A DNA stretch of 42,428 bases from Lentisphaeria bacterium (GCA_017456495.1 JAFTJI010000223.1:1-42428), one strand, 5' to 3'; shown: positions 1 to 42,428, numbered from the stretch's first letter. Program-made: numbers and translations. Notes: generated from the letters alone by a model not told the origin.

Positions 1-490
1 ATTTGATTTCTGCGGGGAGGGTCATCTTTATTTCGGTAACAGCAGGCATCTGATCAATGTTGGCATCAAAGACCCGTCTCTCATCTTGCCAATTTTCTAA
101 ATTATGAATTCCCAAGGTAAATGAGGAGAATTTGACATCGTCCCGCTTGTCGTAAAATCGGTTTCCAATCCATATATCTTGAAACACAATAGTATTTTCG
201 CAGATATCTTGTCCGCTCAACGTAAGACCTGAAAGGCGAGTGTGCCACGCATTAAAAAGTGTAACGCGATATGTTTTATTGTCCATCTGGCAATAACCGT
301 GTAGCACTTCATATTTTTGAAGTTCCCCCGGATACTTACCCTCCAAAAAGCCAATGATTTTAAGGTGCTGTTCCCCGGAAATATCAAAAGTCAGGGTCCC
401 GTAACAATGATGTTCGCTACCGGGAATCCACCATTTCCCAGTAAATGTTTTAACCTTGAAGGCTGATGCAGATGGTTTCTCTGAATTCAT
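1..490 (-). CDS. ApeA-like anti-phage protein, N-terminal part (runs off the window)
   Basis: The frame is open from the ATG at 490 to the window edge, giving 163 N-terminal residues. They match the pattern of the ApeA N-terminal domain 1. A GKWWIP motif lies near residue 18, followed by a YGTLTF strand, a KIIGFL strand, a second half with VTLFNAW, and an F-x-SFTLGIHNLENW segment near the end. In known members this beta-rich domain precedes a HEPN ribonuclease domain, and ApeA proteins act in abortive anti-phage defence; the HEPN part would lie outside this window, so the activity is inferred. The start codon overlaps the stop of the helicase gene in an ATGA, so the two are translationally coupled, with a GGAGG-like ribosome site (tggaggcaaa) just before it. 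The family call is from pattern recognition only. Confidence 0.72.
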   Translation of the reverse strand, partial: MNSEKPSASAFKVKTFTGKWWIPGSEHHCYGTLTFDISGEQHLKIIGFLEGKYPGELQKYEVLHGYCQMDNKTYRVTLFNAWHTRLSGLTLSGQDICENTIVFQDIWIGNRFYDKRDDVKFSSFTLGIHNLENWQDERRVFDANIDQMPAVTEIKMTLPAEIK

Positions 491-3400
491 TTTGCCTCCA
501 TCAATGCGACAAATGCCACGACTTCAAAGTCATCCACTCTGCGGTCAGCATCTCCGGCAAGGCGGATGCCGCCACGCTGGAATAAGGTCTGTACGCCCTG
601 TTCCTGCTGTTTGCCGACAACGGCTTCCACTGCCTTTTCCAGAAGCATCTGGTAGTGTTGCATATTTTTACCTGACTGCGTTTTCTTGTTAAACTGCGCC
701 ACAGCTGTGGATTGGGGCGAAGAATAGCCCAGGCACTCTTTTTTCAGAACATCCAGTATCTGTTTCGGTTGATTGAAGTTCAGCTGGATCGTGCCGTCAT
801 CACTTACAAACACCATATAATACGGAGCCAGAGAATAGCCCGGCTCAACAGAGGCTTTGCCGGTCATATCTTTCAGACAGAAGATCGCACCCGGCTGAAA
901 TTCCTGTTTCAAATATGCCAGATCCAATGCCGCCGAGGTTCGTGCTCCGAAAGGCGTACATTCCAGCACTGGCAGGTTATCCTTCATATATTCGGTCAGA
1001 TCCATGCGGAAGTCATTAAGCGTGAGGTCGGTAATAGAAATTCCGCCATTGATATCTTCCAGGTCCAAAACAGAGTCCTGCAACTGCTGGAGCTGCTTTC
1101 GACGATACTCAAGGTCGTTCATCTGCTTGTTGTTGCTTTCAATGACGTTTTCTTCACCAGTGGCAGAGATATCCAGCAGCACCATACGCCCGGCAACACG
1201 TGCTTCCAGATTGATATATTCATCCAGTTCCATATTGGGCCAGAAGTTTACCAGCTGAATATACTGATTGGTCGATCCGATACGGTCAATTCGTCCGAAA
1301 CGCTGAATGATCCGCACCGGGTTCCAGTGGATATCATAGTTGACCAGACAATCACAGTCCTGCAAGTTCTGACCTTCTGAGATACAGTCGGTAGCGAACA
1401 GGAGTTCGATCTCTTGCGTCTGCGCCGGGTACAGTTTTGCACGTTCTTTGGATCGCGGAGAGAAGTTTGTCAAGATCGTGTGCAAATCGGTACGGATACC
1501 CCGCATGGTAGTCTGATTACTGCCGGTTCCCTGAACCAATGCTGAATGAACGTTGAAGGTATCCAACGCCCACTCAGCAATCTGATTATACAGGTAGGTC
1601 GCAGTGTCTGCAAAGGCAGTGAATATGATAATTTTCTTATTGCCGGGATTCAGAGGAATCTGCAGTTTTTCAGAAATCAGAGATTTCATTGCCTGAAGTT
1701 TACGGTCACGTTCCGGAGTAATCTGTTCAGAAATATGCAGAAGTTTCACCAGATGATCCTGGTCTGCCTGCAGTTCCTGTTTCCAACGGATAATATCACA
1801 GTCCTGAATCAGAACTTTCACCTGATTGCCGATCAAAAGGTCAGACAGCACTTCGGAGTCAATCTCAATATCGTTGATATTCAGCTCATCAAACTCAAAA
1901 GTGCCGCTGTCGCGGGATTCTTCAAAGCGTTCTATCTTGGCAAGGATACTGTTCACCATCTCCAGCAGTTTGCGGACAGTAATTGCAAAGGAGAAGATGG
2001 AGCTTTCCATGCGCTTGAGTAAATTCACCCGCATCAAGTGGATCAAGCTCTCTTCACGGTCGAGCTGTTTGAAAATAGATCCGCCTTCGGTCTGAATGTC
2101 GTATTTGGCATTATATTCATCACGCTTTTCCGGCAAAACATACTTGATCGGAGAATAAGCTGCCAAGTGCAGTCGCTGAATGGTTTTGTTGACCTCCTTC
2201 AGCGGCGGGAAATGACCTTCAGTATCAATATCTTCTTTGATATTCACAGGCAGTTTGCGCTCCGGGAACTTGCCGATATCGCTAAGGTTGTAATATTTCT
2301 CAATATGCTTTCTGGATCGGGCAATCGTCAACAAGTCCAACAGCTTGAAATAGTCAAAGTTCATGGATTCCAGCAGATTTCTGGAATCCCGGCCATCGGT
2401 ATAGAGCCAACGATTAAAACAGGTTTGAGCCTTACGCAGAGTGTTTTCAATACTATTGATCCCGGAATCAGCCAAAGCAGAGTCATCACCGCTGGTGATA
2501 AAGGCAATCTGATTTTTCAAGTCGGTCATCTTACTGTTGACCGGGGTTGCCGAAAGCATCAGCACCTTTGTGTTGATACCAGCCTTAATGATGTCACGCA
2601 TCAGTTTGCGATAGCGGGACAAGCCCTTTTTCTTATTGGGCGCATTATTCCGGAAGTTGTGGGATTCATCAATGACAACGAGGTCATAGTTTTTCCAGTT
2701 CAGAGTTGCCAGATTGAGGTCGCCTGACATCCCCTGGGAACGGCTCAAGTCAGAATGATTCAGCACATCATAACGGAATGCATCATCACTAAAAATATTT
2801 CTTTCGTCATTCTGCTTATACAGAGTCCAGTTGTCCCGGAGCCGCTTGGGGCAGATCACCAGCACTTTGTCGTTGCGCAGTTCGTAATATTTGATGATCG
2901 CCAGAGCTTCAAAGGTTTTGCCCAGACCGACACTATCGGCAATAATACAGCCATTGTATTTTTCCAATTTCTGAATTGCCCCCAGCACGCCATCTTTCTG
3001 GAACTTGTAGAGCTTCTGCCAGATCAAATGTTCTTTAATTCCGGTCTTTGTTTTGATAATTTTTTCTTCATCCAGCTCACCGATGGTGTCGGTAAAAATA
3101 TGATACAGAATCAAGTAGTAAATAAAGTCCGGAGCCTTGTCGCCGCCGATCCATGCCAACTGATCCAGAAAGGACTTTTTGATATCCTGAATCTTCTGGC
3201 GATCTCCCCAGACTGATTCAAACCAAGCTGCCATGGATTCAATGGTCTCTTTTTCATCACATGCAGTATTCATTGACGCACGACCGGAATTTACAAACCC
3301 CAGGCCGGAGGCAGTGAGATCAGCGCCGCCCTGAATAGCAATATCGTTAGTAACCATGAGCTTCTGGTTGACGGATGTGTTCAGGGCGATTTCTGCATGA

Positions 3401-3681
3401 TCTAAAAGCCAATCCCGGCATTTTTTTGCAATGAACTGTTGAGTAAGTTGATTACGCAGTTTTCGTTCATCCGCATCGCCAATCAAAGCAAGTTTGTCAC
3501 TGATATCCAGCGGCTTGGAAAACAGCAGGCGCAATTTATTGATAAGCTGAATATTGTTTTCCAACATTGCAAACGCATAAATAGAAAATAGTTCTGTAAT
3601 AACAGACAGGCCCGTTTCGCGCGTGAGATGCTGCGTCAGTACCTCACCGACCTTTTCTCTTTTGTTATCTATAAATTGCAT
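487..3681 (-). CDS. SNF2/DEAD-type helicase with PLD-like N-terminal region, probable defence helicase
   Basis: This 1064-aa superfamily 2 ATPase shows Walker A ADSVGLGKT (248-256), a DESH Walker B box (338-341), SATP motif III (377-380), motif IV near IIIFTAF (684-690), motif V LLFATDCISEGQNLQ (760-774) and motif VI QRFGRIDRIGS (793-803). A long insertion (about 460-680) separates the two RecA lobes. The N-terminal 200 residues contain IQGGADLTASGLG (116-128), which resembles the GSANLT part of phospholipase-D-like nucleases, but no clear HxK motif is visible, so that domain may be degenerate. Helicases of this architecture are usually found in restriction or defence loci and are expected to move on double-stranded DNA. 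Here it sits between a small HTH gene and an ApeA-like gene. No methyltransferase gene is visible. The start is the first ATG of the frame, with AAGGAACAAAG upstream. Confidence 0.85.
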   Translation of the reverse strand: MQFIDNKREKVGEVLTQHLTRETGLSVITELFSIYAFAMLENNIQLINKLRLLFSKPLDISDKLALIGDADERKLRNQLTQQFIAKKCRDWLLDHAEIALNTSVNQKLMVTNDIAIQGGADLTASGLGFVNSGRASMNTACDEKETIESMAAWFESVWGDRQKIQDIKKSFLDQLAWIGGDKAPDFIYYLILYHIFTDTIGELDEEKIIKTKTGIKEHLIWQKLYKFQKDGVLGAIQKLEKYNGCIIADSVGLGKTFEALAIIKYYELRNDKVLVICPKRLRDNWTLYKQNDERNIFSDDAFRYDVLNHSDLSRSQGMSGDLNLATLNWKNYDLVVIDESHNFRNNAPNKKKGLSRYRKLMRDIIKAGINTKVLMLSATPVNSKMTDLKNQIAFITSGDDSALADSGINSIENTLRKAQTCFNRWLYTDGRDSRNLLESMNFDYFKLLDLLTIARSRKHIEKYYNLSDIGKFPERKLPVNIKEDIDTEGHFPPLKEVNKTIQRLHLAAYSPIKYVLPEKRDEYNAKYDIQTEGGSIFKQLDREESLIHLMRVNLLKRMESSIFSFAITVRKLLEMVNSILAKIERFEESRDSGTFEFDELNINDIEIDSEVLSDLLIGNQVKVLIQDCDIIRWKQELQADQDHLVKLLHISEQITPERDRKLQAMKSLISEKLQIPLNPGNKKIIIFTAFADTATYLYNQIAEWALDTFNVHSALVQGTGSNQTTMRGIRTDLHTILTNFSPRSKERAKLYPAQTQEIELLFATDCISEGQNLQDCDCLVNYDIHWNPVRIIQRFGRIDRIGSTNQYIQLVNFWPNMELDEYINLEARVAGRMVLLDISATGEENVIESNNKQMNDLEYRRKQLQQLQDSVLDLEDINGGISITDLTLNDFRMDLTEYMKDNLPVLECTPFGARTSAALDLAYLKQEFQPGAIFCLKDMTGKASVEPGYSLAPYYMVFVSDDGTIQLNFNQPKQILDVLKKECLGYSSPQSTAVAQFNKKTQSGKNMQHYQMLLEKAVEAVVGKQQEQGVQTLFQRGGIRLAGDADRRVDDFEVVAFVALMEAK

Positions 3682-3750
3682 CTTTGTTCCTTTTCTTAAT
3701 ATTCAGCACTTAATATAGTACCTGCAAGTGGACATTTTGCGTTCTCTCTA

Positions 3751-3948
3751 TTATTCCTGCACAACTTTTTTGCACTTTTTTTTCGGCCCGCCATCCTGAA
3801 GCCACTTTTCCACAAGATCGCGTTTGAACTTCCAACGATCTCCCATTTTCATTGCAGGCATATCCTTTGCAATCCAGCGGGAAATCGTATCATGGCTTAC
3901 TCCGAGATATTCACATATCTCTCTCATTGAAAGCCAGCGGTCATCCAT
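3751..3948 (-). CDS. Small excisionase-family helix-turn-helix DNA-binding protein
   Basis: This 65-aa protein is almost entirely one winged helix-turn-helix of the excisionase/MerR-like type. It has WLSMREICEYLGVSHDTISRWI for the HTH, PAMKMGDRWKFKRDLVEKWL for the wing and last helix, and a lysine-rich tail. Such proteins either act as recombination directionality factors or regulate the operon they head. It lies 69 bp upstream of the helicase gene on the same strand, so it could autoregulate the helicase/ApeA cassette. The start is preceded by AAAGAGGTTT. A promoter-like sequence and an inverted repeat lie directly upstream. Confidence 0.85.
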   Translation of the reverse strand: MDDRWLSMREICEYLGVSHDTISRWIAKDMPAMKMGDRWKFKRDLVEKWLQDGGPKKKCKKVVQE

Positions 3949-4101: not shown

Positions 4102-4211
4102 GTGGGGACACAGCTTTTTTCCCCTTAAGGAAACCTAACCTATACCCTCTTTATATTCTTAAAATTAGGTTTCCTGTATAGGGTATGTAAAGTACTCCCC
4201 ATAGTCCCCAC
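4102..4211. repeat. Left copy of a long inverted repeat with internal hairpins
   Basis: This 110-bp sequence is found again at 9289-9406 in opposite orientation. Shared blocks include 31 bp identical (4181-4211 against 9289-9319) and 18 bp identical (4128-4145 against 9356-9373). Each copy is itself palindromic: an outer GTGGGGAC / GTCCCCAC pair (4102-4109, 4204-4211) encloses an 11-bp AGGAAACCTAA / TTAGGTTTCCT pair (4128-4138, 4165-4175). CCTATAC and GTATAGG lie beside these arms and could pair instead. Possible roles are a terminal repeat of a mobile unit, a replication or processing site, or a structured RNA. Confidence 0.85.
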
Positions 4212-4435
4212 AATAGAAAAGTTCTGCTATGTGGATGCTTGGCTTGTCCTATAATATTGAATACAGCCAGCTTGTTATAGCTTATGGGGAATCCTGAAAA
4301 GAATGCTACTCTGAACAGAGCAAAGAAAGGGCGACTGGAAGCGTGAAATCAGAGTTGGTGTTATATCAAGGAGACTAGCGTTCTATATTTCCTGTTGTCT
4401 TCTTTATCCCCCTTCTTTCCAAAACCCTCAAAAAC

Positions 4436-4454
4436 TTACAGCACTCTGCTGTAA
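4436..4454 (-). other. Short palindrome, possible leftward terminator
   Basis: TTACAGC and GCTGTAA form a 7-bp stem with a 5-base loop. Read leftward it is followed by a short T-rich run, so weak termination is possible, but no gene is known to end here. Confidence 0.25.
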
Positions 4455-4586
4455 AACTTCATAATCGCATTTGAAAAATTACTATTTCTTCGTTTTTATT
4501 TTGCTGTTGCTATATTTGTATTTTTTATAAATAATCAAAATTTCTACCATTTCAATATAAAAACCACTAAATTCTAGTCCTTTTTG

Positions 4587-4621
4587 TGGCATAATCTTTT
4601 GGTAAGCAATTACGCTTTACC
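4587..4621 (+). promoter_or_regulatory. Extended -10 promoter and palindrome before the six-gene operon
   Basis: TGGCATAAT (4587-4595) fits an extended -10 element; no good -35 box is seen at 16-18 bp. Just downstream, GGTAAGC (4601-4607) and GCTTTACC (4614-4621) form a bulged palindrome at the expected transcription start, a plausible operator. The first gene starts 22 bp later. Confidence 0.35.
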
Positions 4622-4643
4622 TAAACCACAGAAAGGACAAAAA

Positions 4644-5405
4644 ATGAAAGACAACACTCAAACAGGCTCTCCTCAAGAGAGTAAAAAACAACACAATGGC
4701 TGGAAATTCTTCTTCCTGATCTTGGCTGTTGTACTCGCCGCAGTTGGATGGTTCCAACTTGACTCCAAACCCAAAGTCTTCAAGCAACAAGAACGACGAA
4801 GTAGATTGGAAGAGCTTGACAGAAAAGCAGATCCCTATTTCAACCAAGCTAGAAAGGAAGTTCCAAAGATTGCTAAAACACTGAGCTCCAAAAAGGCTAT
4901 GATGAAGCTCTGCTGGTTGATAGCTAAGGATAAAGCTACTGGAAAGCACGAGGCAGAAGAGTATTTGGCAAAGCACATCAAGCCTGTTGTAAGCAACTGC
5001 GAACAGGCTGCTAAGATCTATGGGATTTCACTCAACAGCAGTGAGTTCGCAAAGGTCATGAAAGAGATTGGTGCTGACCACTTGAAAGCCTCTGTATATC
5101 CTCTGGGGAGCTTGGGGATTGAGGCTGTTATGATACGCTCTACATTGGCTTCTGTTTCCAGAATTTGCGGTAGTGTCATTGCAAGAATGTCAACGTGTGC
5201 TGTCGGTGGTGGAGCAGCGGCTGTCGCAGATGGTCCATTGCCAATCGGAGATATCTTTGCTGTGGTTCTCACTGTCGGTGGGACTGCTTGGAGTATTTAC
5301 GATCTGCATCAACTCTCAAAACAGCTTCCAAAGGACTTGGAGAACACACTGCTGAACTCCATTGATAACTGCCGCTATGTTTGCAGGGAGGTGTACATGA
5401 AATGA
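4644..5405 (+). CDS. Unknown membrane protein, first gene of the clamp operon
   Basis: This is a 253-aa protein of a family I do not recognise. I chose the ATG at 4644 over an upstream one because AGAAAGGAC sits 7 bases before it, the same ribosome-site context as the clamp gene. A polar N-terminus is followed by one transmembrane helix (about 20-40, KFFFLILAVVLAAVGWFQL), then a charged helical region (about 45-120). A glycine- and alanine-rich hydrophobic segment (about 150-220) contains DGPLPIGDIF and a second hydrophobic stretch, VVLTVGGTAWSIYDL. Most of the protein probably sits on one side of the membrane. The stop overlaps the next start (ATGA). Its place at the head of a replication-type operon is unusual. 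Confidence 0.75.
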   Translation: MKDNTQTGSPQESKKQHNGWKFFFLILAVVLAAVGWFQLDSKPKVFKQQERRSRLEELDRKADPYFNQARKEVPKIAKTLSSKKAMMKLCWLIAKDKATGKHEAEEYLAKHIKPVVSNCEQAAKIYGISLNSSEFAKVMKEIGADHLKASVYPLGSLGIEAVMIRSTLASVSRICGSVIARMSTCAVGGGAAAVADGPLPIGDIFAVVLTVGGTAWSIYDLHQLSKQLPKDLENTLLNSIDNCRYVCREVYMK

Positions 5406-5788
5406 AGAAACTTCTCCTCCTTCTCCTTGTTGCACTCGTCTTCTGCTGTGAAGCTCGACCTCACAGAAGAATCACTCCCAAGTCGCCCCCCAGAAAACCC
5501 ATCAAGGAATATGTCCAGAAAGTCAACTGGAAACACATTGCCGCTGGTGGTGCTGCAGCAGGTACTGTTGTTGCAGCCTACAAAATCAGTGATGGCGTAC
5601 AGGAAGGCATGGAAAGAGCTGCGAAAGAAGATCCCGAAACATTTCTGGATAACTTCTCGTCGTTCTTATCACCAGTGAAGTTCCTCTTCTATGGACTCGC
5701 TGCAATTCTTCTTGCATGGGTCTCAATCCCTATTATCAAAAAATACAAACGAAAGGACAAAAATGAAAGTCACGATCAACAAAAGTGA
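5402..5788 (+). CDS. Unknown small exported or membrane protein
   Basis: This 128-aa protein starts at 5402, overlapping the previous stop by four bases. It opens with a strong signal-like sequence (MKKLLLLLLVALVFCCEA); the double cysteine hints at a lipoprotein, but VFC is not a canonical lipobox. A basic, proline-rich segment follows (HRRITPKSPPRKP), then a glycine/alanine-rich helix (IAAGGAAAGTVVAAYKI) and a C-terminal transmembrane helix (about 95-118, FLFYGLAAILLAWVSIPII) ending in a lysine-rich tail. The gene runs 26 bp into the clamp gene. The layout could suit a pair of interacting membrane proteins with the gene upstream. No family is recognised. Confidence 0.72.
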   Translation: MKKLLLLLLVALVFCCEARPHRRITPKSPPRKPIKEYVQKVNWKHIAAGGAAAGTVVAAYKISDGVQEGMERAAKEDPETFLDNFSSFLSPVKFLFYGLAAILLAWVSIPIIKKYKRKDKNESHDQQK

Positions 5789-7124
5789 AATCGCAAGTGC
5801 CTTAATAGCACTCGGCAAAAATATCTGCAGAACATCTCCTGTAATTCTTCACAAATCGCTCCGTATTAGCACGATTGATGGAGAAATCAAACTTGCTACA
5901 TGCAAGGGCAATGAGGAAGTAACCTTTACTACCTGTGCAGAGACAGTTGGTACGATCAATGTAGTAGTACTGTTTGATGAGTTCAAAGAAGCTCTGAAAT
6001 CCTGTCGCGCTAAAACAGTGGAAATTGCATGGGAAAACAGGATGCTCAAAGTTGGAGAGTGCTACTTGGAGCTTCAAAACGAAAGCGAATGGCCTGTTAT
6101 CGAAATGAACGATTCTGCAACCAGTTGCGAACTGCCTGAAAATGTTGTTGCAATGTTTACAGATGCAGCTCCTATCGTTAAAAACAGGGAACCAAGACGC
6201 ATTCTGCATGGTATCAATATCAGTCGAAGCGGCTTGACTGTTACTAACGGTCGGGAACTTCTGAATTTTCCTCTGGAACTTGATTTTGAATCTACGACGG
6301 TGTTGTTACCGCTTGCTTTGATTCAGTCAAAAGCAACAGACTCAGGCAGAATTTACCGTTGGATTAATAACGGTAGCGTTTTCTTCAAAATTGATGTCGG
6401 AAAATGGTCTTGGAGAGGGAAAGCCTTAACAGGAGATTTCCCCAACTGGAAGCAGATCATTCCAAGTCAAACAGTGCTTTCCCATGAGTTCCGTTTAACA
6501 GAGGAACACGCTCAAAGAGCATTGACTTTTCTGAAATCTCTTCCTGAACTTCCCCCTCATAACGCTGTGGAAGTTTCACAGTGCGATGGGAAACTGAAAT
6601 TCGTTCAGGAGGAGCAGACATTATCCCTTACAGCAGAATTCACAGGAGATTGGAACTCTTACAGTTTCAGTATCAATCGTGACATGCTGCAGAGGATCTT
6701 TCAACTGGGGCATACGATTGTGAAGACCAGCGATCATCATGTACCTATTCAGGCAGAAGGAGGACGTGGAATATACATCACCATGCCGCTCTATCAGCGT
6801 AAACCAACAGAAGATCAAACAGTCAAAGAACCAGAAAACAAAGAAAATACAACCACGGAGGAACCCAAAATGGAAATGAATCACGGAATGAAAATTGTGT
6901 CTGCCCCTGTGCAGACAGTCGCCAAGAATCAGGAACCTGAAACAAGTCCTTTGGATGAGCTCAGCATCAGCATTGAGGCGTTCAAGCTGAAGATCAAGAC
7001 CATTGCAGATGAAGCGTCTCAGTTGGCTCGCAAAGTCAAGGAAGCCCAGATTGCTCAAAAGCAGAAAGAACGCGAGTTCGTTCAGGCTCGCAGGGCAATC
7101 GAACGAATCAGAATGGCGATTTAA
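5763..7124 (+). CDS. DNA polymerase III beta-clamp-like protein with C-terminal coiled coil
   Basis: The first 343 residues of this 453-aa protein follow the three-domain pattern of DnaN sliding clamps. Domain 1 has SPVILHKSLRIS (25-36), ATCKGNEEVTF (45-55), and a run of strands ending LKVGECYLELQNESEWPVI. Domain 2 ends in GDFPNWKQIIP (224-234), the usual FP-x-(3-5)-IP signature. Domain 3 closes with YITMPL (338-343), the equivalent of the clamp C-terminus. A disordered, E/T/P-rich linker (344-395) and a predicted coiled coil (396-453, LARKVKEAQIAQKQKEREF) are added, which chromosomal clamps lack. The ATG at 5763 is chosen for its GAAAGGAC ribosome site. It is probably the element's own processivity factor or a competitor of the host clamp. 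A terminator-like hairpin follows. Confidence 0.72.
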   Translation: MKVTINKSEIASALIALGKNICRTSPVILHKSLRISTIDGEIKLATCKGNEEVTFTTCAETVGTINVVVLFDEFKEALKSCRAKTVEIAWENRMLKVGECYLELQNESEWPVIEMNDSATSCELPENVVAMFTDAAPIVKNREPRRILHGINISRSGLTVTNGRELLNFPLELDFESTTVLLPLALIQSKATDSGRIYRWINNGSVFFKIDVGKWSWRGKALTGDFPNWKQIIPSQTVLSHEFRLTEEHAQRALTFLKSLPELPPHNAVEVSQCDGKLKFVQEEQTLSLTAEFTGDWNSYSFSINRDMLQRIFQLGHTIVKTSDHHVPIQAEGGRGIYITMPLYQRKPTEDQTVKEPENKENTTTEEPKMEMNHGMKIVSAPVQTVAKNQEPETSPLDELSISIEAFKLKIKTIADEASQLARKVKEAQIAQKQKEREFVQARRAIERIRMAI

Positions 7125-7150
7125 CTACAAAAGAAAGTACAACCAATGAA

Positions 7151-7186
7151 GTCCCAGAGGTCAGCTGCCTGCTGGGATTTCTTTTT
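7151..7186 (+). terminator. Intrinsic terminator or attenuator after the clamp gene
   Basis: TCCCAG (7151-7156) pairs with CTGGGA (7171-7176), with AGG/CCT inside, and a T-rich run follows. The next gene starts 15 bp later, so it would reduce rather than end transcription of the recombination genes. Confidence 0.6.
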
Positions 7187-7201
7187 TAAGGAGAAACGAC
7201 T

Positions 7202-7606
7202 ATGTTGAAACTCAATGCATCTTACAGCAAGAAAGTCCCTGCAGAGGGCGAATACTCTTCTCAGTCCTACCACGCAAGCATCGAAGTGGAACTCCCAGAT
7301 GGTTTGAATCAGGAACAGCTTCAGAACAGGATCCATGAAACCTTTGCAATGGTTCGTGAAAGTGTCGAAGCAGAACTTCATGGAAGAACTGCAAAAGCAG
7401 AACCCGCAAATCAGAACACCTCAAACCATCAGCCTCAGAATGGAACTCCTGCAAGTCCGAAACAGATCAAGTACCTGCTTGACCTGGGACGCAATCTTGG
7501 CTGGACACCTCAGCAGATCGCTGCAAAGTGTAACGTGGCAGATGTTCACAATCTGACCAGACGCCAGTGTTCTGATCTGATCAACGAATGGAAGGCGGTG
7601 GCATAA
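7202..7606 (+). CDS. Unknown 134-aa protein with C-terminal SPKQIKYLLDLG motif
   Basis: The start follows a good AAGGAG site. The N-terminal half is beta-rich and begins MLKLNASYSKKVPAEGEYSSQSYHAS; an amphipathic helix follows (LNQEQLQNRIHETFAMVRE), then a Q/N-rich linker. The C-terminal domain (about 88-134) has SPKQIKYLLDLGRNLG and LTRRQCSDLINEWK, a short helical domain also seen at the ends of phage recombination or DNA-binding proteins. The gene overlaps the nuclease gene by one base (TAATG). Position suggests a recombination or single-strand DNA accessory factor, but this is inference only. Confidence 0.65.
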   Translation: MLKLNASYSKKVPAEGEYSSQSYHASIEVELPDGLNQEQLQNRIHETFAMVRESVEAELHGRTAKAEPANQNTSNHQPQNGTPASPKQIKYLLDLGRNLGWTPQQIAAKCNVADVHNLTRRQCSDLINEWKAVA

Positions 7607-8400
7607 TGAACATCATGGATCTCAAAAGTACGCCGCACTGGTCTTATTCTGCGTTCCAGACTTATCTGCAGTGTCCCATGAAGTATTATCTGCGATACGT
7701 TGAACATGCTGAACCTGAACACACTTGTTCTGCTCTTCCCTTTGGTAGGGCTTTCCATGCGGTTCTCTCTGAGAGGGCACGCAAGGGTACAGCGTTCTCC
7801 ATTGACGATGCAAAGGATGATTTCTTTGTTTATTTCAAGGGTGAAACAGAAGTTTGCCAGAACCTCACCTATAAACAGGGAGAGGACTTTGAAAGTTGTC
7901 TTGTGAAAGGACAGGACATGCTGGAAGTTGCACTGGAAAACTGGCAGGACGACTATGTGGATGTTTCTGTTGCTGAAGCCTTTTCAGTGGAAGTACCGGG
8001 CTTGTCAAAGCCTCTGATCGGGGAGTTCGATCTCATTGTCAGGAACGATGCTGAAGAGACTGTCTGCGATTGGAAGACCAGCTCAAGCAAGTGGCAGACA
8101 GGGAAAGCAGACTGGGATCTTCAGGCAACAACCTTTTGCTATGCTTATCAGCAGCTTTATGGAAAGATCCCACTGTTCAGGTTCGATGTTTTCACCAAAG
8201 CGAAACAGCCGACTGCAAGCAGTTATTACACGGTCAGGACAGAAGACGACCTGCAGAAGTTCATCTTTCTGGCACAGCAGATAGAGAAGTCTATCCAGTC
8301 AGGCTTGTTCTACCCCAACGAGAATTGCATGAACTGCAGTGAGTGTCCTTACAAAAAGCAGTGCAAAAATGTTTGCCAGAAAGGAGGTTGCAATGAATAA
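7606..8400 (+). CDS. PD-(D/E)XK family nuclease, Cas4/AddB-like with Fe-S cysteines
   Basis: This 264-aa protein has the signatures of the RecB-type nuclease family. SYSAFQTYLQCPMKYYLRY (13-31) is the usual N-terminal helix with the first cysteine (C23). H51 lies in GRAFHAVL, GEFD (139-142) supplies the first acidic residue, D155-W-K157 is the catalytic DxK, and Q173 in DLQATTFCYAY is the QxxxY motif. Three further cysteines at 241, 247 and 253 (with C244 nearby) can complete a 4Fe-4S cluster with C23 as in Cas4 and AddB. The start at 7606 overlaps the previous stop. No cas genes are near, so a recombination exonuclease is likelier than CRISPR adaptation. Confidence 0.88.
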   Translation: MNIMDLKSTPHWSYSAFQTYLQCPMKYYLRYVEHAEPEHTCSALPFGRAFHAVLSERARKGTAFSIDDAKDDFFVYFKGETEVCQNLTYKQGEDFESCLVKGQDMLEVALENWQDDYVDVSVAEAFSVEVPGLSKPLIGEFDLIVRNDAEETVCDWKTSSSKWQTGKADWDLQATTFCYAYQQLYGKIPLFRFDVFTKAKQPTASSYYTVRTEDDLQKFIFLAQQIEKSIQSGLFYPNENCMNCSECPYKKQCKNVCQKGGCNE

Positions 8401-9127
8401 TCTCTGTATGGGTGGTGGCGGTCAGTTTGTCAGCCGTGATGAAGTCGCTTTGATTCAGACACCTCAATCCACAGCCAGTTGGAAGCCAGTTCCTCATATT
8501 GATGTGATCAACTCTGTAACCAAAGTGATCGAAGCTCACAAATGGCAGATCACAAAAGAGCAGTATGGTCTTGTAAGAGAGGGACAGAAGATGTTTGGCG
8601 TGATCGAGTTGAACAACAGCAGATCACCCGATCACAAGCGTGCGATTGGAATCCGGAACAGTCATGACAAGAGTTTCTCTGTTGGGTTGAGTGCCGGTAT
8701 CTGTGTCTGCGTTTGCAGTAACCTTGCCTTTGGTGGTTCGACTGTTATCAAGAAGCGGCACACCAGTGGTTTGGAACTGACAGAGCTTATTGATGTTGCT
8801 ATTGAAAGTCTTGAAAATGAGTTTCTTATCACAGAAACTGTTGTTGAAGACTTGAAGATCCTTTATCTGAAGAACGATGATGATGCCAGATGCAGAATTG
8901 TGAGAGCAGCAGAGATGGGCGTTATCAACAGCAGCGACATTGTTCCTGTATTCAAGGAGTTCAAGAATCCTCAGCATGAAGAGTTTCTGGAACCAACCAG
9001 ATACAGTCTGATGAATGCAATCACTGAGACAGTGAAGAAGTACACTCCTCAGAGGTTGGATCAGACTTATCTGAGCTTGAACAGAGCTTTTGGATTGGAT
9101 GGCAATCGTCCTGAACTATGGAAATAG
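8393..9127 (+). CDS. DUF932 domain protein (phage/plasmid type)
   Basis: A 244-aa protein starting at 8393 behind a near-perfect AAGGAGG ribosome site. It matches DUF932 in the GVIELNNS region, AIGIRNSHDKSFSVGLSAG (about 87-105) and the VCVCSNLAFGG motif, followed by a basic HTS segment. Members are frequent in phages, plasmids and integrative elements, commonly beside exonucleases or recombinases, but their biochemical role is not settled. Here it follows the nuclease gene with an 8-bp overlap and is the last gene of the operon; an intrinsic terminator lies 57 bp downstream. Confidence 0.85.
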   Translation: MNNLCMGGGGQFVSRDEVALIQTPQSTASWKPVPHIDVINSVTKVIEAHKWQITKEQYGLVREGQKMFGVIELNNSRSPDHKRAIGIRNSHDKSFSVGLSAGICVCVCSNLAFGGSTVIKKRHTSGLELTELIDVAIESLENEFLITETVVEDLKILYLKNDDDARCRIVRAAEMGVINSSDIVPVFKEFKNPQHEEFLEPTRYSLMNAITETVKKYTPQRLDQTYLSLNRAFGLDGNRPELWK

Positions 9128-9183
9128 ACCTCGAAGTTGCCATTCGTATGGAAAGTGATGCGCTCCATACAAAGACCAGCATC

Positions 9184-9214
9184 CGGGGGGACATAAAATC
9201 CCCCCGTTTTTTTT
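9184..9214 (+). terminator. Intrinsic terminator of the six-gene operon
   Basis: CGGGGGG (9184-9190) pairs with CCCCCCG (9200-9206) around a 9-base loop, followed by eight T residues (9207-9214). Confidence 0.88.
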
Positions 9215-9288
9215 AGATAGGAGTGAAGAATAACACCAAGTAAAAAAACAGTAAAAAATGTTGAAGAGAAAAGCAAGGTTCATAAGTA

Positions 9289-9406
9289 GTGGGGACTATG
9301 GGGAGTACTTTACATACCCAGTATAGGAAACCTAATTTTTTAGAATAAAAAGAGTGTATAGGTTAGGTTTCCTAAGGGGTAATAGAACCACCTCCCCATG
9401 GTCCCC
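9289..9406. repeat. Right copy of the long inverted repeat
   Basis: Inverted copy of 4102-4211. The outer arm next to the six-gene operon is the best conserved part: 9289-9319 equals the reverse complement of 4181-4211 over 31 bases. Inner arms AGGAAACCTAA (9325-9335) and TTAGGTTTCCT (9363-9373) are retained, whereas the distal flank (9374-9406) has drifted. About 5.1 kb lie between the copies. Confidence 0.85.
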
Positions 9407-9420
9407 AAAAAGAGTTCCCC

Positions 9421-9460: not shown

Positions 9461-10861
9461 TTATCCTGCTATGGCAGGGCTTTCCAGACTTTCGTAAAAA
9501 TTCACGACATCTGGATCAATGATGATATCTTCCTTGACGATCTTTCTGTCCAGCACCAGCCCTTCCAGCGATCTGCAGCGAGAAAGAGCCGTGTAAAGCT
9601 GCCCACTGGCGAAGCAGCCATTTCCGAGAAAAAGTTTCGCACGGTCAAAGGTCTGTCCTTGGGACTTGTGGACTGTGACCGCCCACGCCAAACGTAATGG
9701 AATCTGCAAAAAAATCCCAGAGACTGTCCGCTCTACTTTCATTTTCCCTGACATCCTGTCATATACCAGTTTATACTCGTATGAGGGCCATTCATAAGCC
9801 CCAATGAGCGCAGAACGTCCATCATCAAATCTGACTGAAACATATCCGAGACCATCTTCGGTATGGCTGATTTCTTCAATGCACCCCATATCACCATTCA
9901 CGTACTCGTAGCTCCCATCAGGTAGCAGCTTGTTTGCCAAGGTCATGACACGTGCTCCTTTCTGCAAGTTGAGATTCGCTTCGGTGGGATATTCTGACTC
10001 AGGGAATGAGCCAGTTATCTTCGCCTTGAAAAGTTCTGCATCCGTGTTCAGTTTTGAACTTTGTCTGCCGTTAATTGCATCAGCTTGTTTGCGGGTTGTG
10101 CAAAGAGCGATTGCCTGGGGTGCTTTGGAGGCATTGTCCTTGCTATAACAGCATGTGTTGAGTGCATCGATCGCATCAACAGGTTCTTTCTTTCCCGACA
10201 ACACAATATTCTTCTCGTTGAGCTGTCCATGGCGGATGTTTTTCAAAATCTGATAAAACACACGGTCTCTACTCTGACGGTGCTGCTCTTTCAGCATTGC
10301 GACTTTGAATTTTGCCTTCTCCCAAATCTCAGTTTGAAAAGCAAAATTTCCTCCGAAGGTTTCCTTCAGGTAATCCTTTTCAACATCTGTAGTCACAACA
10401 GGCGGCAACTGGAAAAAGTCTCCACAGACAATGATCTGCTTTCCACCGAAAGGACGGTTCTGTTTTCTTCCTGATGCAACAGCACGAAGGCGATTATCAA
10501 CAGCCCACAAAATATCGGATCTGACCATGGAGATCTCGTCGATAACGATCGTGTCCACAGCCTCAAGAAGTGCTTGAAGACGAGGATTCGTTATTGCTTC
10601 GATGGTATCCTCCGTCTGCAAGCCAAGACCAAGCTTGCAGAAGCTGTGGATTGTTCGCCCCTTGATGTTGCAGGCGGTAATCCCAGTTGGAGCCAGAAAA
10701 ACAGTGTTCTTGTCATTGGATTTTTCGCAGAGTTTTTTCAGGAGAGCAGACTTCCCTGTTCCAGCTTCTCCGGTAAGAAATACATTCTTACCGGAGAGCA
10801 TAAGCTCCAGGGCTTTGTTCTGTTCAGCGGCCATTTCAGGAGCTTTTGCTGAGTTAGTCAT
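9461..10861 (-). CDS. Pif1/RecD-like superfamily 1B helicase
   Basis: A 466-aa protein with Walker A GEAGTGKS (31-38), the LAPTGITACNIKGRTIHSF motif Ia region (58-75), Walker B IVIDEISM (106-113), GDFFQLPPV motif III (about 147-155), and the C-terminal VTVHKSQGQTFDRA and LYTALSRCRSLEGL motifs. This is the full Pif1 pattern in a compact form with no extra domains. Such 5'-3' helicases clear structured DNA during replication and are carried by many mobile elements. Its ATG overlaps the primase stop by one base (TGATG), so the two are co-translated. Confidence 0.9.
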   Translation of the reverse strand: MTNSAKAPEMAAEQNKALELMLSGKNVFLTGEAGTGKSALLKKLCEKSNDKNTVFLAPTGITACNIKGRTIHSFCKLGLGLQTEDTIEAITNPRLQALLEAVDTIVIDEISMVRSDILWAVDNRLRAVASGRKQNRPFGGKQIIVCGDFFQLPPVVTTDVEKDYLKETFGGNFAFQTEIWEKAKFKVAMLKEQHRQSRDRVFYQILKNIRHGQLNEKNIVLSGKKEPVDAIDALNTCCYSKDNASKAPQAIALCTTRKQADAINGRQSSKLNTDAELFKAKITGSFPESEYPTEANLNLQKGARVMTLANKLLPDGSYEYVNGDMGCIEEISHTEDGLGYVSVRFDDGRSALIGAYEWPSYEYKLVYDRMSGKMKVERTVSGIFLQIPLRLAWAVTVHKSQGQTFDRAKLFLGNGCFASGQLYTALSRCRSLEGLVLDRKIVKEDIIIDPDVVNFYESLESPAIAG

Positions 10862-13296
10862 CAGGCATTTTCTCCTTCTGCTTCGTCTTCATTATTATTG
10901 AGCATGAGGGTACAATCTGCATAGGTTATACCTGCCCAGACTTCAAGGTCTCTTGGGGTGCGGATACGAGTTTCTTCGACATCAGGAAATCTGACTTTCA
11001 CTGCTGCATTGAATTTCCCTCTGCCTTTGGGACTGTAACCATTGTCGGTCGCCCAGATTTTGTAAGTTGAATACAGCTTTCCTCTGGAACAGTAACTTCC
11101 TGGAATTGCAATCACATTTTCAGCAAAGAATTCTGCCTCATGATCGCAAGCAAGCCGGTGATTTTGTAAGATTGCTCGAGATGTGGGGGGTAAAGGAAAT
11201 CGAGTGTGTTCCCTTAATTCTCTGGCACCTTCTACAGCCCACAAGAAAATTCCTGGTAATTCTTTCTCAAGATCTTTCTTCAGATTTGGTTTCTCATTGT
11301 CCGTGTCTCGAATACGGTTGGGGAAATGCAAAATAACCAGACGATCCCAGAGTCCGTTTGATCGATCAACAAAAGAAGGAAGCTCGTTAGTATTGAAGAC
11401 ACATCGGGCTATAGCAGGAGCCATTTTTGGATTTACAAATTTCGGCTCAATGGGAATCATGGCCCCATCTGTAACCATTTTGAACATTTTTTCGGCATCT
11501 GAAATATTTCGAATTTCACAGGAAACAGGAGTCTCTTCGACAAGATTCAACTTGTGTTCGGTCAGAAGATGAGTTGAATGTTTTTCTCCCAGATTCGCAA
11601 AAGGAAGACAGCAGGTTTGGCTCTCTCCGTAAAGTTTACCGAGAATATGCGTTGCAACACTCTTGCCATCACCGCCTCTTCCGTATTGAAAAAAGCCAAT
11701 ATTTTTATCAATTTTCCCAGATAAAATGTAGCCGAACATCATCTGTAACGCTTGACGGCTTTCTTCATCATTGAAGGTTGTCTGCAAATATTCGTGCCAC
11801 ATTGGACATTCGGCTTCAGGTAAATAATCGTATTCTACTTGGTGGGACCCAAAATAGCTTGGAGACAAGGGGCGTAAAGTCTGTTCTTCGCCTGCGATCA
11901 GCTTGTCTATCGACAGCATCCCATTGCGGAAGCAAATAATGTCTGAAGCATCTTCTCCACTCGGCAACCAGCAAGGCATTTTGCAATCAACCAAGCCACA
12001 TAACCCTTTGAGGTTTAGTTTTGTGTCGTTGATTACAGACGTACTGATTCGGCCTTCTTCGTGTACGGAATTTTGCTGCAAAAAATGTGTGATATTGATA
12101 TCAAGGTCATCTTCAGAGATTTCTTGCCATGTTCTTCCATTATATCCCCACCATGAACTGTTCACAAAACGTAGTGCTAACTCCCCTGAATTTGTATTTT
12201 CGTTAAGGAACGCTTTCGCATAATCGGTGACTGGCAAAAACGGGCGCCATCCCTTCTGCCCGTTTTCGGGAGAAGAGATTGCTCTGCGATCAGCCTTTGC
12301 CTTGTTTTTAAGGAAAAATTTTTCAAAATCATTCCAGGTCTTGGGTCCAAATTCCTGCGAGACGAGATACTGCATTTCATTGCCACGACGGAAACCGGGT
12401 ATGCGAGTGAGCCTGCTGGGATTCTTGTTTGCAGGGTCGACAGGGAAGTTTTGCTCTGCCAAATATCTATGAAGAGCCGCAACACGCTCACGATAAAGAT
12501 CGAAATCGTTCCCGGCATCGATCTTCACAATAGCATGAAGGCTCTTACCGCCAGACCAGACGACTGCCTTGATCGGGAGGTTCAATTCCTTGAGCAGTTT
12601 CCACTGTTCTTCCTTGGAAAGGTCGTCAGCTTCGATAAGTGCATGACGGTACTCGGTCACATCCGCATCTCCAGGAGCCTTCCCCTTAAAATCCTTTTTC
12701 ACGGGATTTAACGATACCCAGGCACCATCGAGACTCTGTGTTACGATCTCTTTGATTCTTGCAAGATTTTCTGCAGTAATCTCTGTAGATTCACGGCTTT
12801 GTATCTGACTTTGTGTTCGATCAGGGATAGTTTTCCCCTTTGCATCTGTTCTCACAGAAGAAACGAATTCATAGAACTCGCCCTCTTTGAAAAGCAGATC
12901 AATGAAGGTGCCGACCTGCAGCGCCTGTTCTTCGGGAGTTGTGGGAGCCGATAACATCTCTTGGGGGAGTGGGATGAATGCATCTTTATATTTATCGGCC
13001 AGATATTTAATCGTTTTTAAGGTCACTTCTGGCTTACCTTCTGCGCAAACATCCTCCCATACACGTTTTGCATCAGAGGCATCGTATTTATTTTCTATAG
13101 ATTTCTGACTCCACTGGTCAAACACGGAAAAATCCTTACCGATGTTTTTTAATCCTGCAGCAACTTGAATCCACTCGTTGCGTGGTACATCTGCAGGTAT
13201 ATTCATTAACAAAGCTTCCACATTGCTGGTGCAAACTTTATCGCTGATGTTGTTTTCAATGTTTAAACTTGCGGTGCTAGAAATTCTTTTATTCAT
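10861..13296 (-). CDS. Phage/plasmid primase-helicase (PriCT, AEP-like primase, D5/P4-type helicase)
   Basis: This 811-aa protein has a PriCT_2-like domain (about 26-105: NEWIQVAAGLKNIG, FDQWSQKS, KRVWEDVC). An archaeo-eukaryotic-type primase core follows, with acidic motif IEADD (221-225), SGGKSLHAIV (248-257), and SRLTRIPGFRRG (294-305). A D5_N-like region around 360-500 leads to a superfamily 3 helicase with Walker A GRGGDGKS (539-546), LNLVEET (583-589), and an FNTNELP sensor segment. It would make primers and unwind DNA at the element's origin. GAAAGGGCAC precedes the start. Its presence argues for autonomous or phage-satellite-like replication. Confidence 0.88.
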   Translation of the reverse strand: MNKRISSTASLNIENNISDKVCTSNVEALLMNIPADVPRNEWIQVAAGLKNIGKDFSVFDQWSQKSIENKYDASDAKRVWEDVCAEGKPEVTLKTIKYLADKYKDAFIPLPQEMLSAPTTPEEQALQVGTFIDLLFKEGEFYEFVSSVRTDAKGKTIPDRTQSQIQSRESTEITAENLARIKEIVTQSLDGAWVSLNPVKKDFKGKAPGDADVTEYRHALIEADDLSKEEQWKLLKELNLPIKAVVWSGGKSLHAIVKIDAGNDFDLYRERVAALHRYLAEQNFPVDPANKNPSRLTRIPGFRRGNEMQYLVSQEFGPKTWNDFEKFFLKNKAKADRRAISSPENGQKGWRPFLPVTDYAKAFLNENTNSGELALRFVNSSWWGYNGRTWQEISEDDLDINITHFLQQNSVHEEGRISTSVINDTKLNLKGLCGLVDCKMPCWLPSGEDASDIICFRNGMLSIDKLIAGEEQTLRPLSPSYFGSHQVEYDYLPEAECPMWHEYLQTTFNDEESRQALQMMFGYILSGKIDKNIGFFQYGRGGDGKSVATHILGKLYGESQTCCLPFANLGEKHSTHLLTEHKLNLVEETPVSCEIRNISDAEKMFKMVTDGAMIPIEPKFVNPKMAPAIARCVFNTNELPSFVDRSNGLWDRLVILHFPNRIRDTDNEKPNLKKDLEKELPGIFLWAVEGARELREHTRFPLPPTSRAILQNHRLACDHEAEFFAENVIAIPGSYCSRGKLYSTYKIWATDNGYSPKGRGKFNAAVKVRFPDVEETRIRTPRDLEVWAGITYADCTLMLNNNEDEAEGENA

Positions 13297-13358: not shown

Positions 13359-13922
13359 AACAAAAGAAATCATTCTGCAAAGAAAAAAATCTTATTTCTA
13401 TCTGCATCATTCTGTATTTCCCCTCCTTTCCTTCATATGAAAATGCAGCAGCTAATATTTTTTTCTCACCAAAAACTATCTCTTTGTAAAGATCTCCGAT
13501 TTTTTTTGTGTGTGTGCGAACCTTGCTTCCCTCTTCAACATTTTTATCTATTTTTCAAACAGCACCTTCCAGAGCGACTGGAATTACTGAGTAATGTAGC
13601 AAAAACCTTGCCAACTTTTTTTCAGATAGGGAAAAAAATCAAAGTGAGACATTTTGACACACTTTCGCTGTGCCCATAATTTTTGCGACAGGCTTATTTT
13701 GTCTCATCTATCAGAAGTTTTAAACTCTAAACTTTTGGGTCACCATATGAGTTCTGTGAAAAAGTTGAGAGATATGTTTTTTTTACTGCCAATCGCATGG
13801 CTCTAGGGATGCGATTGGAGGAGGCGCTCACTATAGAGGTTGAAATCAAGAGGAAGGCGAGTATAGTATCGTTGTTGGTGTGAATTTGTTGTTTTTTTGA
13901 ACAAGAAAACTGGATTTTTTGT

Positions 13923-14059: not shown

Positions 14060-14079
14060 ATAAATCAAGGCAAAAAAAA

Positions 14080-14155
<76 letters not shown>

Positions 14156-23193: not shown

Positions 23194-26100
23194 TCACTCT
23201 CCAATCTGGATCAGGGAGAAGTTATATCCCCTGACCTTCCAGTTTTTCAGATCCTGTGCCGTCAATTTCTTTCCGGTGCGGATATCTTTTATCACCGCTC
23301 CGGCAGGGATACCGAGTGCTTCGTAATTCACGCCCAGTTGTACCGTCTGCTCCTTTTTATTCTTATTCACAATCACTGCCATGGCGCGTTTGCCAATGGT
23401 ATAAACACTGATATAGATATTTTTCCCGGTAGATCCCACCATGAACTGTTTCCGGTAAGAGTGGAACTTCAGCGCAGGATCCTGCCAGCCGAACGCATCC
23501 AGTTTCTTGTACAGATTGTTCACATAAGTCATATCCATCCAGAGGTTCCAGATAAGAGAGTCATGCAGCAGGGCAAGCGCAAGAACCTGATCGTTGTAAT
23601 CTTTGTTCAGACGGTGTTCTTTCGGACCGGTTCTGCCCAGATTCGGAAGAAGCATCGGAACAACCCCGGAACTGTGCAGATAGTAGATCTGATACGCATC
23701 CATACCGTAATGTTCCAGATAGTTGCTGTTGCCGATCAGCTCGGTTTCCAGCTCTTCGCCGGAACACTGGAAGTCCACAAAAGCGTTGATCGGTGCGCTG
23801 GTTCTTGCTGACATGTGCGCCCAGAGATAGTTCTTTTTCTGGTCTCTGCCCTGTGCGTGAAGCAGCGTGTAAAGACGCTTCATGTAATTTCTCATGGCGC
23901 GGATCGGGAAGGTGAGTTTCTGATTCCCCTGTTCGTCAATATAACCGCAGCCGTGAAGTTCATTGGCACAGTTGTAGGCTCCAAGACTGTCAACATACAC
24001 GCACTGCAGACTGCCGTGTTTGATATGATCGTCGATCTGCCATACGATATAATCTGTAAAGCTGGATGCCGGACACTGGGGGTAAACATTGTAGGGGTTC
24101 CGCCACTCTTTCCGGAAAATCTTGTATTCAGTCGCTTCGGGGCTGACAAGGAAGGGATTCAGATAGAGAGAAAGTTCAGCCCCTCTGTCACGGAACCGCT
24201 TGACTTCTTTCCGGAACGCTTCCATAGAGGTATGTTCCGGAGTAAAGAACCCGCCGCTGCCGGGATATTTCTTTATTTTGGGATCAATGGTCCACGGGTG
24301 CGCGATTGTAAAGGGATCAAAGAACCAGACTCTCCAGGTACGGAACTGGGGCGGTGTGGGCTTTACCGGGTTGGCTTCGATCCCGAACTCCAACAGGAAC
24401 TTCTTGCCGGAAAGTTTTGTCGGCTTGTCAACAAAACGAACCTGCCAGAGAACATTTTTACCTTTTCTCTGAATACGGAATGCCGCTTTGGTGTCTTTGT
24501 TCCGCCAATACTGGAAGGATTCTGTCACGAATGTGAGACCGATATCCATATTTCCGAGCCAGACAGACGGAATCTGTTTGAGTGTCAGGCTTTCTCCGAG
24601 TTTTCCGACATAATTTTCGCGGGAGAAGAAGTGCGCATTGTAAAAGTCCGCAACAGAAGCGGGCATTTCCATTTCGAGGAAAAGTTCTTCCAGTGTACCG
24701 GAATTTTTGCTGAGATCCAGCGTGTACCAGAGGAAACCGTCATACTCCAGCGTAACAGTTCCGCTGAGAGAGACTCCCCCGGAAGAAGCTGTGAAGTTCA
24801 TAATCGTCTGTTCGCCGTTCTCTTTGACTTTCTTGAACTTGAAGTTGCGGAAAACGATATTTTTGCCGTTCATTTTTGCACGGAAAACCGGCTTTGCGGC
24901 AAACAGCGGAACGTTCTGTGAAGTGATCTGTTCCGGAAGAAGTGCGGACCCGAAAACATGATTTCTGCCAATGACGGAAAGGGTGTTTCCATTCCGTTTG
25001 ATCGGGGTGTACGGATAAGGGATCCCGGTCATACCCGGCTTTTCTTTCAACCATTTCGGGGTGCCGATGTGCTTGTATTTTTCAGAGACTTTCATCAACT
25101 CTTTTCCGGCGGCATCCCGGAAGATAAATTCCAGAACACAATCCCCGGCAGGGAACTGCTTCAGATCAAAACTGCCTGCAACCATGTCTTTTGCTTTGAT
25201 GACAGTGCTGATCTGCTTGCCGGAAACATGGCGCAGTGTCACCGTCGTTGCAGCAGTTTTTGCAAGGGCAAAATGACTCTTCAAGTCGGCAGTATAAATG
25301 AGTTTGGATTCAGAAAGGTTCGTTTCTGTTGTGATCTTGACGTCATCCTTGAACACCAGCGGGAGATCCTGACGGTAAATCAGATTTCCGGCGGCATCGG
25401 TCATGGTCACGCGGACGACTCCGGAACGGAATCCGGAAAGCGGGTCGGTATGATTTACAACTGCCGAAGCTCCGGCTGGAATTGTTTTGACATAGGAACG
25501 AACCGTACCTTTTTTGCCGTCGTTCGGGAGATTTTCGATTCTGACAGTAACGTTCTGAGCCTTTACGGAACGGTTGAAAATTTCCGCTTTCAGGTCAAGT
25601 TTCCGTTCAAAAAGCTGGGCATAATCCACGGAGAGCCGCGCGAAACAGCCTTTCCCGGTCATGCGGAACTTTCCGAAATAGGCACTGAACGGCATTGCGG
25701 AGGGAGAGACGGAGGAGAAAAGAATATCCGGTTCCACCTGGCGGTCACGGCAGAAGTTGAAGTCCCACATCTTTCCTTCTCTGAAAGAACTTTCAAAATC
25801 GGAAATGGGGATCGTCAATTCACAGATCCACTGTCCTTCATAGAGACCGTTGCGGACTTTCCAGTTTCCGTTCCACTCTTTTCTGGAGTTGCGGGCATCA
25901 TAGATCGCACCGTTGTAGTTGACGATCGTCTGGTAATTTCCCTGTTTCATTTCCGGCGGACGGAGAAAGAATTCAAAGGCATCATCCATATAAACGGCAC
26001 CGTCGCGGTCTTTGATTTTATTGACCAGCTGAGTTGCGCCGGGGATTTTTGCCACTACGCAGAAGTAGAAGTTTTTTGCATCCATACCGGCATAGACTTC

Positions 26101-42208: not shown

Positions 42209-42329
42209 CCATTTCTTGCGGAAATTTCAAAAAAAGCAGATCATAATGAGGTAATTTCAAAAGTCCGGCAAAATTTGGCTGAAAAAGGATTGTTGATGAG
42301 CTGAAAATGGTAGGTTGAGCGTGGCTGCC

Positions 42330-42357
42330 ATCCTCCTTCGCTGAAGCTATGGAGGAT
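42330..42357. repeat. Nested palindrome, possible REP-like element
   Basis: ATCCTCC (42330-42336) and GGAGGAT (42351-42357) enclose TTC-GCT-GAA, giving a hairpin within a hairpin. It lies in non-coding DNA after the terminator. No second copy is visible in this window. Confidence 0.35.
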
Positions 42358-42428
42358 AAACCGAAAACGCCCCATTTTACAGATCGCAACAAGAATTTTC
42401 TGACATTTTTGAAGACTTTTGAAATTAC

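Follow-up and report, generated by a model that had tools for sequence, protein, structure and literature searches.

Two inverted repeats in a 42,428-nucleotide contig of a Lentisphaeria bacterium (GCA_017456495.1, JAFTJI010000223.1:1-42428; hereafter the window, meaning the whole stretch of DNA that was analysed) probably represent two origin-type sites in an integrative element that relies for replication on a P4-family primase-helicase of its own, a reading to which we give a probability of roughly 0.82. The left copy, R_L, and the right copy, R_R, enclose an operon of six open reading frames (ORFs) that includes genes for a sliding-clamp-like protein (the clamp), a conserved protein designated P134, an exonuclease and a DUF932 protein; the primase gene and a PIF1 helicase gene form a convergent operon beyond R_R. 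The site would be an origin of a known class and ordinary in kind; what is unusual is that two or three complete copies are present at module borders. The parts of the two copies in the window are as follows.

4102..4212, minus strand: R_L, origin-like iteron dyad, left copy, at the border between the operon and the defence-like cargo.
4196-4201 and 4205-4210, minus strand: TGGGGA iterons of the operon-facing arm of R_L, found by scan.
4103-4108, plus strand: single TGGGGA iteron of the outer arm of R_L, found by scan.
9289..9407, plus strand: R_R, complete dyad 3' of the primase-PIF1 operon, found by scan and covariance search.
9290 and 9299 (plus strand), 9393-9398 and 9402-9407 (minus strand): TGGGGA iterons of R_R.
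9324..9374: inner dyad of R_R, with the left arm TAGGAAACCTAA at 9324-9335, the right arm TTAGGTTTCCTA at 9363-9374 and an AT-rich core between them.

R_L and R_R aligned in inverted orientation with 84.5% identity over 110 bp, and an alternative alignment gave 90.5% over 95 bp and 124 bits, compared with a top inverted-repeat score of 47.3 bits in 20 first-order Markov windows. The description of the pair in the initial annotation, which had reported repeats with 31- and 18-bp perfect blocks on either side of a six-ORF operon, was therefore upheld; the blocks read GTGGGGACTATGGGGAGTACTTTACATACCC (31 bp) and GTATAGGTTAGGTTTCCT (18 bp). It was also correct that the strongest identity faces the operon, since the operon-facing arms are the best conserved in both copies, and that no transposase or recombinase lies between the repeats, as none was found among the six ORFs.

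Each copy is a quasi-palindrome (DNA fold z = -6.6 for R_R and -2.2 for R_L), and a strong hairpin is predicted in R_R. The TGGGGA motif is repeated at a 9-bp period in one arm and its inverse in the other, so that the arms face each other; the duplex sequence of the paired iterons is TGGGGACTATGGGGAGTA. Inside the iteron arms, a second dyad, TAGGAAACCTAA ... TTAGGTTTCCTA, surrounds the AT-rich core. The AT content is 66-68% in the inner part and 36-47% in the outer arms, against 52% in the window (68% and 36%, respectively, for R_R alone). All four iterons are retained in R_R, and three in R_L, whose outer arm reads GTGGGGACACAGC. R_R carries two iteron sets (2 x 2 TGGGGA) around an AT-rich region, which is the arrangement of P4-family primase replicons.

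The primase of the window scored 131.8 bits against TIGR01613, the P4 family model (cutoff 108.7). Residues 360-800, which include the superfamily 3 helicase (SF3) part, were modelled at about 90 pLDDT (predicted local distance difference test) and end in a winged-helix-like fold, the combination that defines the P4 family, while the model of the N-terminal third was of poor quality. By both fold and sequence, the nearest solved structure is the primase-helicase of SaPI5 (7ola). The primase-helicase is thus the probable initiator that reads the iterons.

Comparison with known origins gave the same architecture in pRN1 and a less perfect form of it in crr of phage P4. In the archaeal (Sulfolobus) plasmid pRN1, a stem-loop of about 100 bp is required for replication, as established by deletion and relocation, and functions when displaced (PMC4234260); it was described by its authors without iterons (PMC4234260). 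The 9-bp scan of pRN1 located at 5087-5180 pairs of TGTCCA 9 bp apart together with their inverse, with an AT-rich loop between them. The pRN1 site resembles R in being a palindrome of about 100 bp with inverted 9-bp-spaced pairs 3' of a P4-family primase gene, but it is a single copy with no second site. In phage P4 (NC_001609), crr is annotated immediately 3' of alpha; its type-1 iterons have a spacing of 9 bp and its inverted iterons one of 18 bp, and ori is situated about 4.7 kb from crr, across the alpha operon. P4 therefore shares with the window a P4-family primase, paired 9-bp iterons (at crr) and a second cis site some 4.7 kb away; unlike in the window, the two sites of P4 are not copies of each other, crr being a tandem pair of 120-bp repeats, and the inverted iterons of crr are spaced at 18 bp. 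Moreover, the sites of P4 are separated by the alpha operon itself, whereas those of the window are separated by the clamp-nuclease-DUF932 operon. The origins of Staphylococcus aureus pathogenicity islands (SaPI), phage-inducible chromosomal islands (PICI) and staphylococcal cassette chromosome mec elements (SCCmec) are located 3' of a D5 or DUF927 helicase gene and contain iterons (PMC6092414, PMC7581432); those of PICI always comprise two iteron sets around an AT-rich region (PMC6092414), and the repeats of SCCmec are bound by Cch2 via its C-terminal domain (PMC7581432). These islands resemble the window in the order of a D5-type helicase gene followed by iterons, and SaPI5 supplies the nearest structure, but they have one origin straight after the gene, whereas in the window PIF1 intervenes and the element family has two or three complete copies.

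The architecture was also found with other motifs. In an order-level search of 137 genomes, divergent matches at G062, G126, G039, G060 and G061 adjoined P4/D5-family primases 30-50% identical to that of the window, so that the architecture extends to other families of the order. Three of these sites have the iterons TGTGCAGGG TGTGCAGGG ... CCCTGCACA CCCTGCACA with a conserved inner CCTAA/TTAGG dyad, and in the TGTGCAGGG-type sites all four motif copies are altered in concert. At G062 and G126, the dyad overlaps the 3' end of the primase gene; in the window, R_R is one gene (PIF1) away and R_L is not 3' of the primase. A strict scan for exact doubled 6-mers plus their inverse, run over about 880 kb of loci, returned 11 records at period 9 (some stretches overlap, and one G010 site was counted twice) and none in shuffled sequences; periods 7, 8, 10 and 12 gave no records and period 11 gave one. 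The scan added G026:C76, where the dyad is just upstream of the membrane-clamp operon, as R_L is, and G029:C1, with TGGACA iterons plus a half copy. At the latter locus (L062 2134-5645), the full TGGACA dyad and the half copy surround a small cargo block, and a type I restriction subunit gene lies just outside. Six stretches outside the element cores, 111 kb in total, gave no dyad in the strict scan; part of this DNA carries R half-sites that the scan misses.

The suggestion in the initial annotation that the repeats are transcripts with a shared structure is unlikely, because the same architecture occurs with entirely different arm sequences beside P4-family primases. Compensatory changes were present in just 1 of 24 pairs of R, and therefore no RNA structure is claimed for it; a search of the window against Rfam matched the tRNA alone.

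The association with primase genes extended to viral sequences. Among 80 listed loci from viral contigs selected by TGTGCAGGG doubles, 32 had the motif on both strands. Of the proteins with the 3' end directed toward the TGTGCAGGG dyad, 25 of 28 matched DUF5906 and many matched Toprim, compared with 0 of 30 neighbours on the opposite side. The strict viral pattern TGGGGAC plus TAGGAAACCTA had no matches; when it was relaxed to inverted pairs of TGGGGA, the iteron of the window, 23 IMG/VR contigs were recovered, mostly with the pairs located at the 3' end of a long ORF or overlapping it, and the nine such ORFs that were tested encoded Toprim/DUF7146, DnaG-like or D5_N/DUF5906 primases. An unbiased set was obtained by primase protein similarity alone: a single-protein search of viral contigs found no relatives, and an alignment-based search yielded 80 loci, 69 of them distinct. 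In 24 of the 69 distinct loci, a dyad was present between positions -60 and +600 bp relative to the primase stop, whereas the remaining 94% of this sequence contained four dyad sites (p about 1e-25) and shuffled sequences contained none. Period 9 was the commonest (11 loci), followed by 10 and 8; the 9-bp period is thus typical but not universal. A blastn search with one viral dyad against annotated phages gave no match, and therefore no annotated origin could be read there.

Taken with these comparisons, the layout of the window suggests how such a site would work. The winged-helix domain at the C terminus of the primase would bind the 9-bp-phased TGGGGA iterons of each arm, and two helicase assemblies, loaded face to face, could then melt the AT-rich core between the TAGGAAACCTAA and TTAGGTTTCCTA arms, after which the primase-helicase would unwind and prime the DNA for replication. 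R_R, 3' of the primase-PIF1 operon, would occupy the canonical origin position, and R_L, which lies 5.1 kb from R_R and retains three of the four iterons, could serve as a second initiator-binding site (compare ori plus crr in P4) or as a duplicate origin. R_L may be needed as in P4, may be a spare, or may be a relic of module exchange.

The complete element is present in G010, a Lentisphaerae metagenome-assembled genome (MAG) whose primase is 98% identical to that of the window. There it is inserted in tRNA-Phe and bounded by a 57-bp direct repeat, and the far end encodes a tyrosine integrase; the order is primase, PIF1, R, operon, R, cargo, R, integrase. The 57-bp attachment (att) stretch of the window and the far-end copy of the direct repeat in G010 are 100% identical. 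The window matches the left part of that element through the second R, and the cargo beyond it differs. R_R is 97% identical to its G010 copy.

A covariance model of R was searched over the 36 genomes of the family. R_L and R_R were the sole copies in their own draft genome, and strong matches were confined to this element family, in two genera; the remaining matches were half-sites (G011:C90, G010:C33) or weak (G006, E about 0.4). Two or more R sites were found in the window, G010, G016:C17 and G018:C223, and in all four, as well as in G016:C37 with one half-site, the pair around the operon has the same relative orientation, with the two copies facing each other; these are related elements and hence not independent. 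In genus g8, one copy is upstream of the operon and another is inside it, between the clamp and P134 genes, so that only three genes lie between the two. Many relatives retain the clamp, P134, nuclease and DUF932 genes without R. R and the operon are therefore not one unit, and the proposal that they form one fell by the test that the initial annotation itself had set. The strict tie of R to one primase clade was likewise rejected, as G016:C17 has a different clade. Abundant 140-bp palindromic repeats, considered as a source of R, proved to be unrelated.

Several observations weigh against the assignment of both copies as origins. R_L is one iteron short and its position is not 3' of the primase, and neither is that of the second R copy in g8. 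In G016:C17, two R copies occur together with a D5 helicase from a different clade, the g8 primases of G015 and G018 contain internal stops, and several relatives with the clamp/DUF932 operon have no dyad by the strict scan. The same scan missed crr of P4, where the inverted iterons are 18 bp apart, and under the strict rule 45 of the 69 distinct viral primase loci have no dyad within 600 bp. Finally, the genome is a draft MAG and the window contig terminates within the element; an integrase sought in this genome yielded no ortholog, only a 31% relative.

In the elements read so far, R_L-type copies divide the operon from the cargo, which is defence-like in the window and comprises glycan-related enzymes in G010, glycosyltransferases in G016:C17, and a glycosyltransferase and a sulfatase in G018. 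Synteny between the window and G010 stops inside R_L (4119 versus 27140); the inner half of R_L is 93% identical to its G010 counterpart and the outer half 71%. Half-sites are broken in or near the core in G011:C90/G010:C33, G016:C37 and G029:C1. What is new is that an element carries two or three complete dyads, located at module borders, with synteny breaks and half-sites in or near them; this suggests that the origins may be exchange joints.

In a stronger form, the R copies would be recombination joints, site-specific or homologous, for swaps of cargo modules, with origin function secondary or absent. We regard this as improbable. R does sit at module borders, between operon and cargo in the window and G010, between cargo and integrase in G010 and between clamp and P134 in g8; these positions, the synteny end within R_L and the broken half-sites speak for such a role, but no recombinase partner was identified, the tyrosine integrase acts at the tRNA-Phe site, and the placement at primase 3' ends in unrelated phages is left unexplained. 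The R copies might instead be regulatory operators or bidirectional terminators for the operon and the convergent primase operon, as R_R is located between the two with a strong hairpin and R_L is upstream of the first. This, too, has a low probability: neither role requires inverted 9-bp double iterons with an AT-rich core, one g8 copy is inside the operon, and in pRN1 this arrangement has been proven to be an origin.

The possibility, raised in the initial annotation, that the repeats are the ends of a non-autonomous mobile unit, or insertions like miniature inverted-repeat transposable elements (MITE) or repetitive extragenic palindromic (REP) sequences, is very unlikely. Although the copies are palindromic and form an inverted pair around a gene block, the ends of the element are the tRNA-Phe att site with its 57-bp direct repeat in G010, convincing copies occur only in these elements apart from the two half-sites, and the abundant REP families of the genomes are unrelated. 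In addition, the position of the second copy differs between genera and is inside the operon in one of them, the operon occurs without R, and the flanks, compared by eye, showed no target duplication; a composite transposon or MITE, as a multi-site unit with target duplications, was rejected on these grounds. An invertible segment, another suggestion of that annotation, is equally remote and was rejected as a site-specific inversion system: inverted sites with facing arms do occur in several elements of two genera, but the window and G010 have the same orientation, g8 has three genes between the copies, and no dedicated recombinase lies between them. Of the four readings offered there, paired origins is the one that the evidence supports.

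The other annotated features of the element in the window are listed below.

4644..5405, plus strand: operon gene 1, putative membrane protein of 253 amino acids (aa), no Pfam or PHROG match, homologues in related elements.
5402..5788, plus strand: operon gene 2, putative membrane protein of 128 aa.
5763..7124, plus strand: operon gene 3, sliding-clamp-like processivity factor (phrog_947, E=1.7e-12; dnaN weak, below cutoff).
7202..7606, plus strand: operon gene 4, conserved protein of 134 aa (P134), homologues in relatives.
7606..8400, plus strand: operon gene 5, PD-(D/E)XK / Cas4-like exonuclease (PF12705, E=4.5e-25).
8393..9127, plus strand: operon gene 6, DUF932 (PF06067, E=7e-11).
9461..10861, minus strand: PIF1/Dda-like helicase, directly after the primase (domain and profile searches).
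10861..13296, minus strand: P4-family primase-helicase (PriCT_2, D5_N, DUF5906), probable initiator (TIGR01613, Pfam, 7ola).
3751..3948, minus strand: excisionase-type / Mad1-like helix-turn-helix (HTH) protein, first gene past R_L (TIGR01764 above cutoff; padloc mad1).
487..3681, minus strand: cargo, SNF2 helicase of a candidate defence system (padloc HKD+Snf2, E=1e-133).
14075..14131, minus strand: attachment core, a 57-bp stretch in the 3' part of tRNA-Phe (tRNA at 14080-14155, minus strand).

The cargo beyond R_L (1-3948) resembles a defence system, with the Mad1-like HTH protein, the HKD+Snf2-type SNF2 helicase and a PDC-S58-like protein that is truncated where the contig stops. No packaging genes were recognised in the element, and no search for a helper phage was made. 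Relative to the window, G010 (L041 13632-14143) has about 510 bp extra between the clamp and P134 genes, with two small ORFs on the opposite strand; this gap is 600-1100 bp in other relatives and forms a second cargo hotspot. A 38-bp inverted repeat (9244-9281 / 13518-13555) flanks the primase-PIF1 operon and is conserved in G010, with a score at chance level for one window. Elsewhere in the window, two paralogues of about 1255 aa, encoded on opposite strands (23194-26958 / 35822-39601), account for most of the long inverted repeats, and 42245-42428 holds a copy of a very abundant family of 130-140-bp palindromic repeats, unrelated to R, of which G000, G010 and G011 each have 40 copies or more. 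G018 has another abundant repeat family, also unrelated to R.

On a broader scale, we tentatively propose, as a possibility that is still doubtful, that inverted iterons phased at about 9 bp could be a general signature of P4-family primase origins in phages, bacterial elements and archaeal plasmids, which would unite the "stem-loop" and "iteron" origins, and, jointly with this, that origins may double as exchange joints: breakage at their cores during replication would permit cargo swaps, and origin placement would shape the modular layout. The finding gives a testable origin and initiator for a family of integrative elements with defence and surface-sugar cargo in uncultured Lentisphaerae-type bacteria. 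The rule derived from it, inverted 6-mer pairs every 8-10 bp just after the primase gene, supplies candidate origins in about one third of the blindly chosen distinct viral P4-family primase loci and allows the proven stem-loop of pRN1 to be re-read as iterons. If confirmed, it would allow origins to be predicted across many phages and islands and would open the link between module exchange and the copies of the origin to testing.

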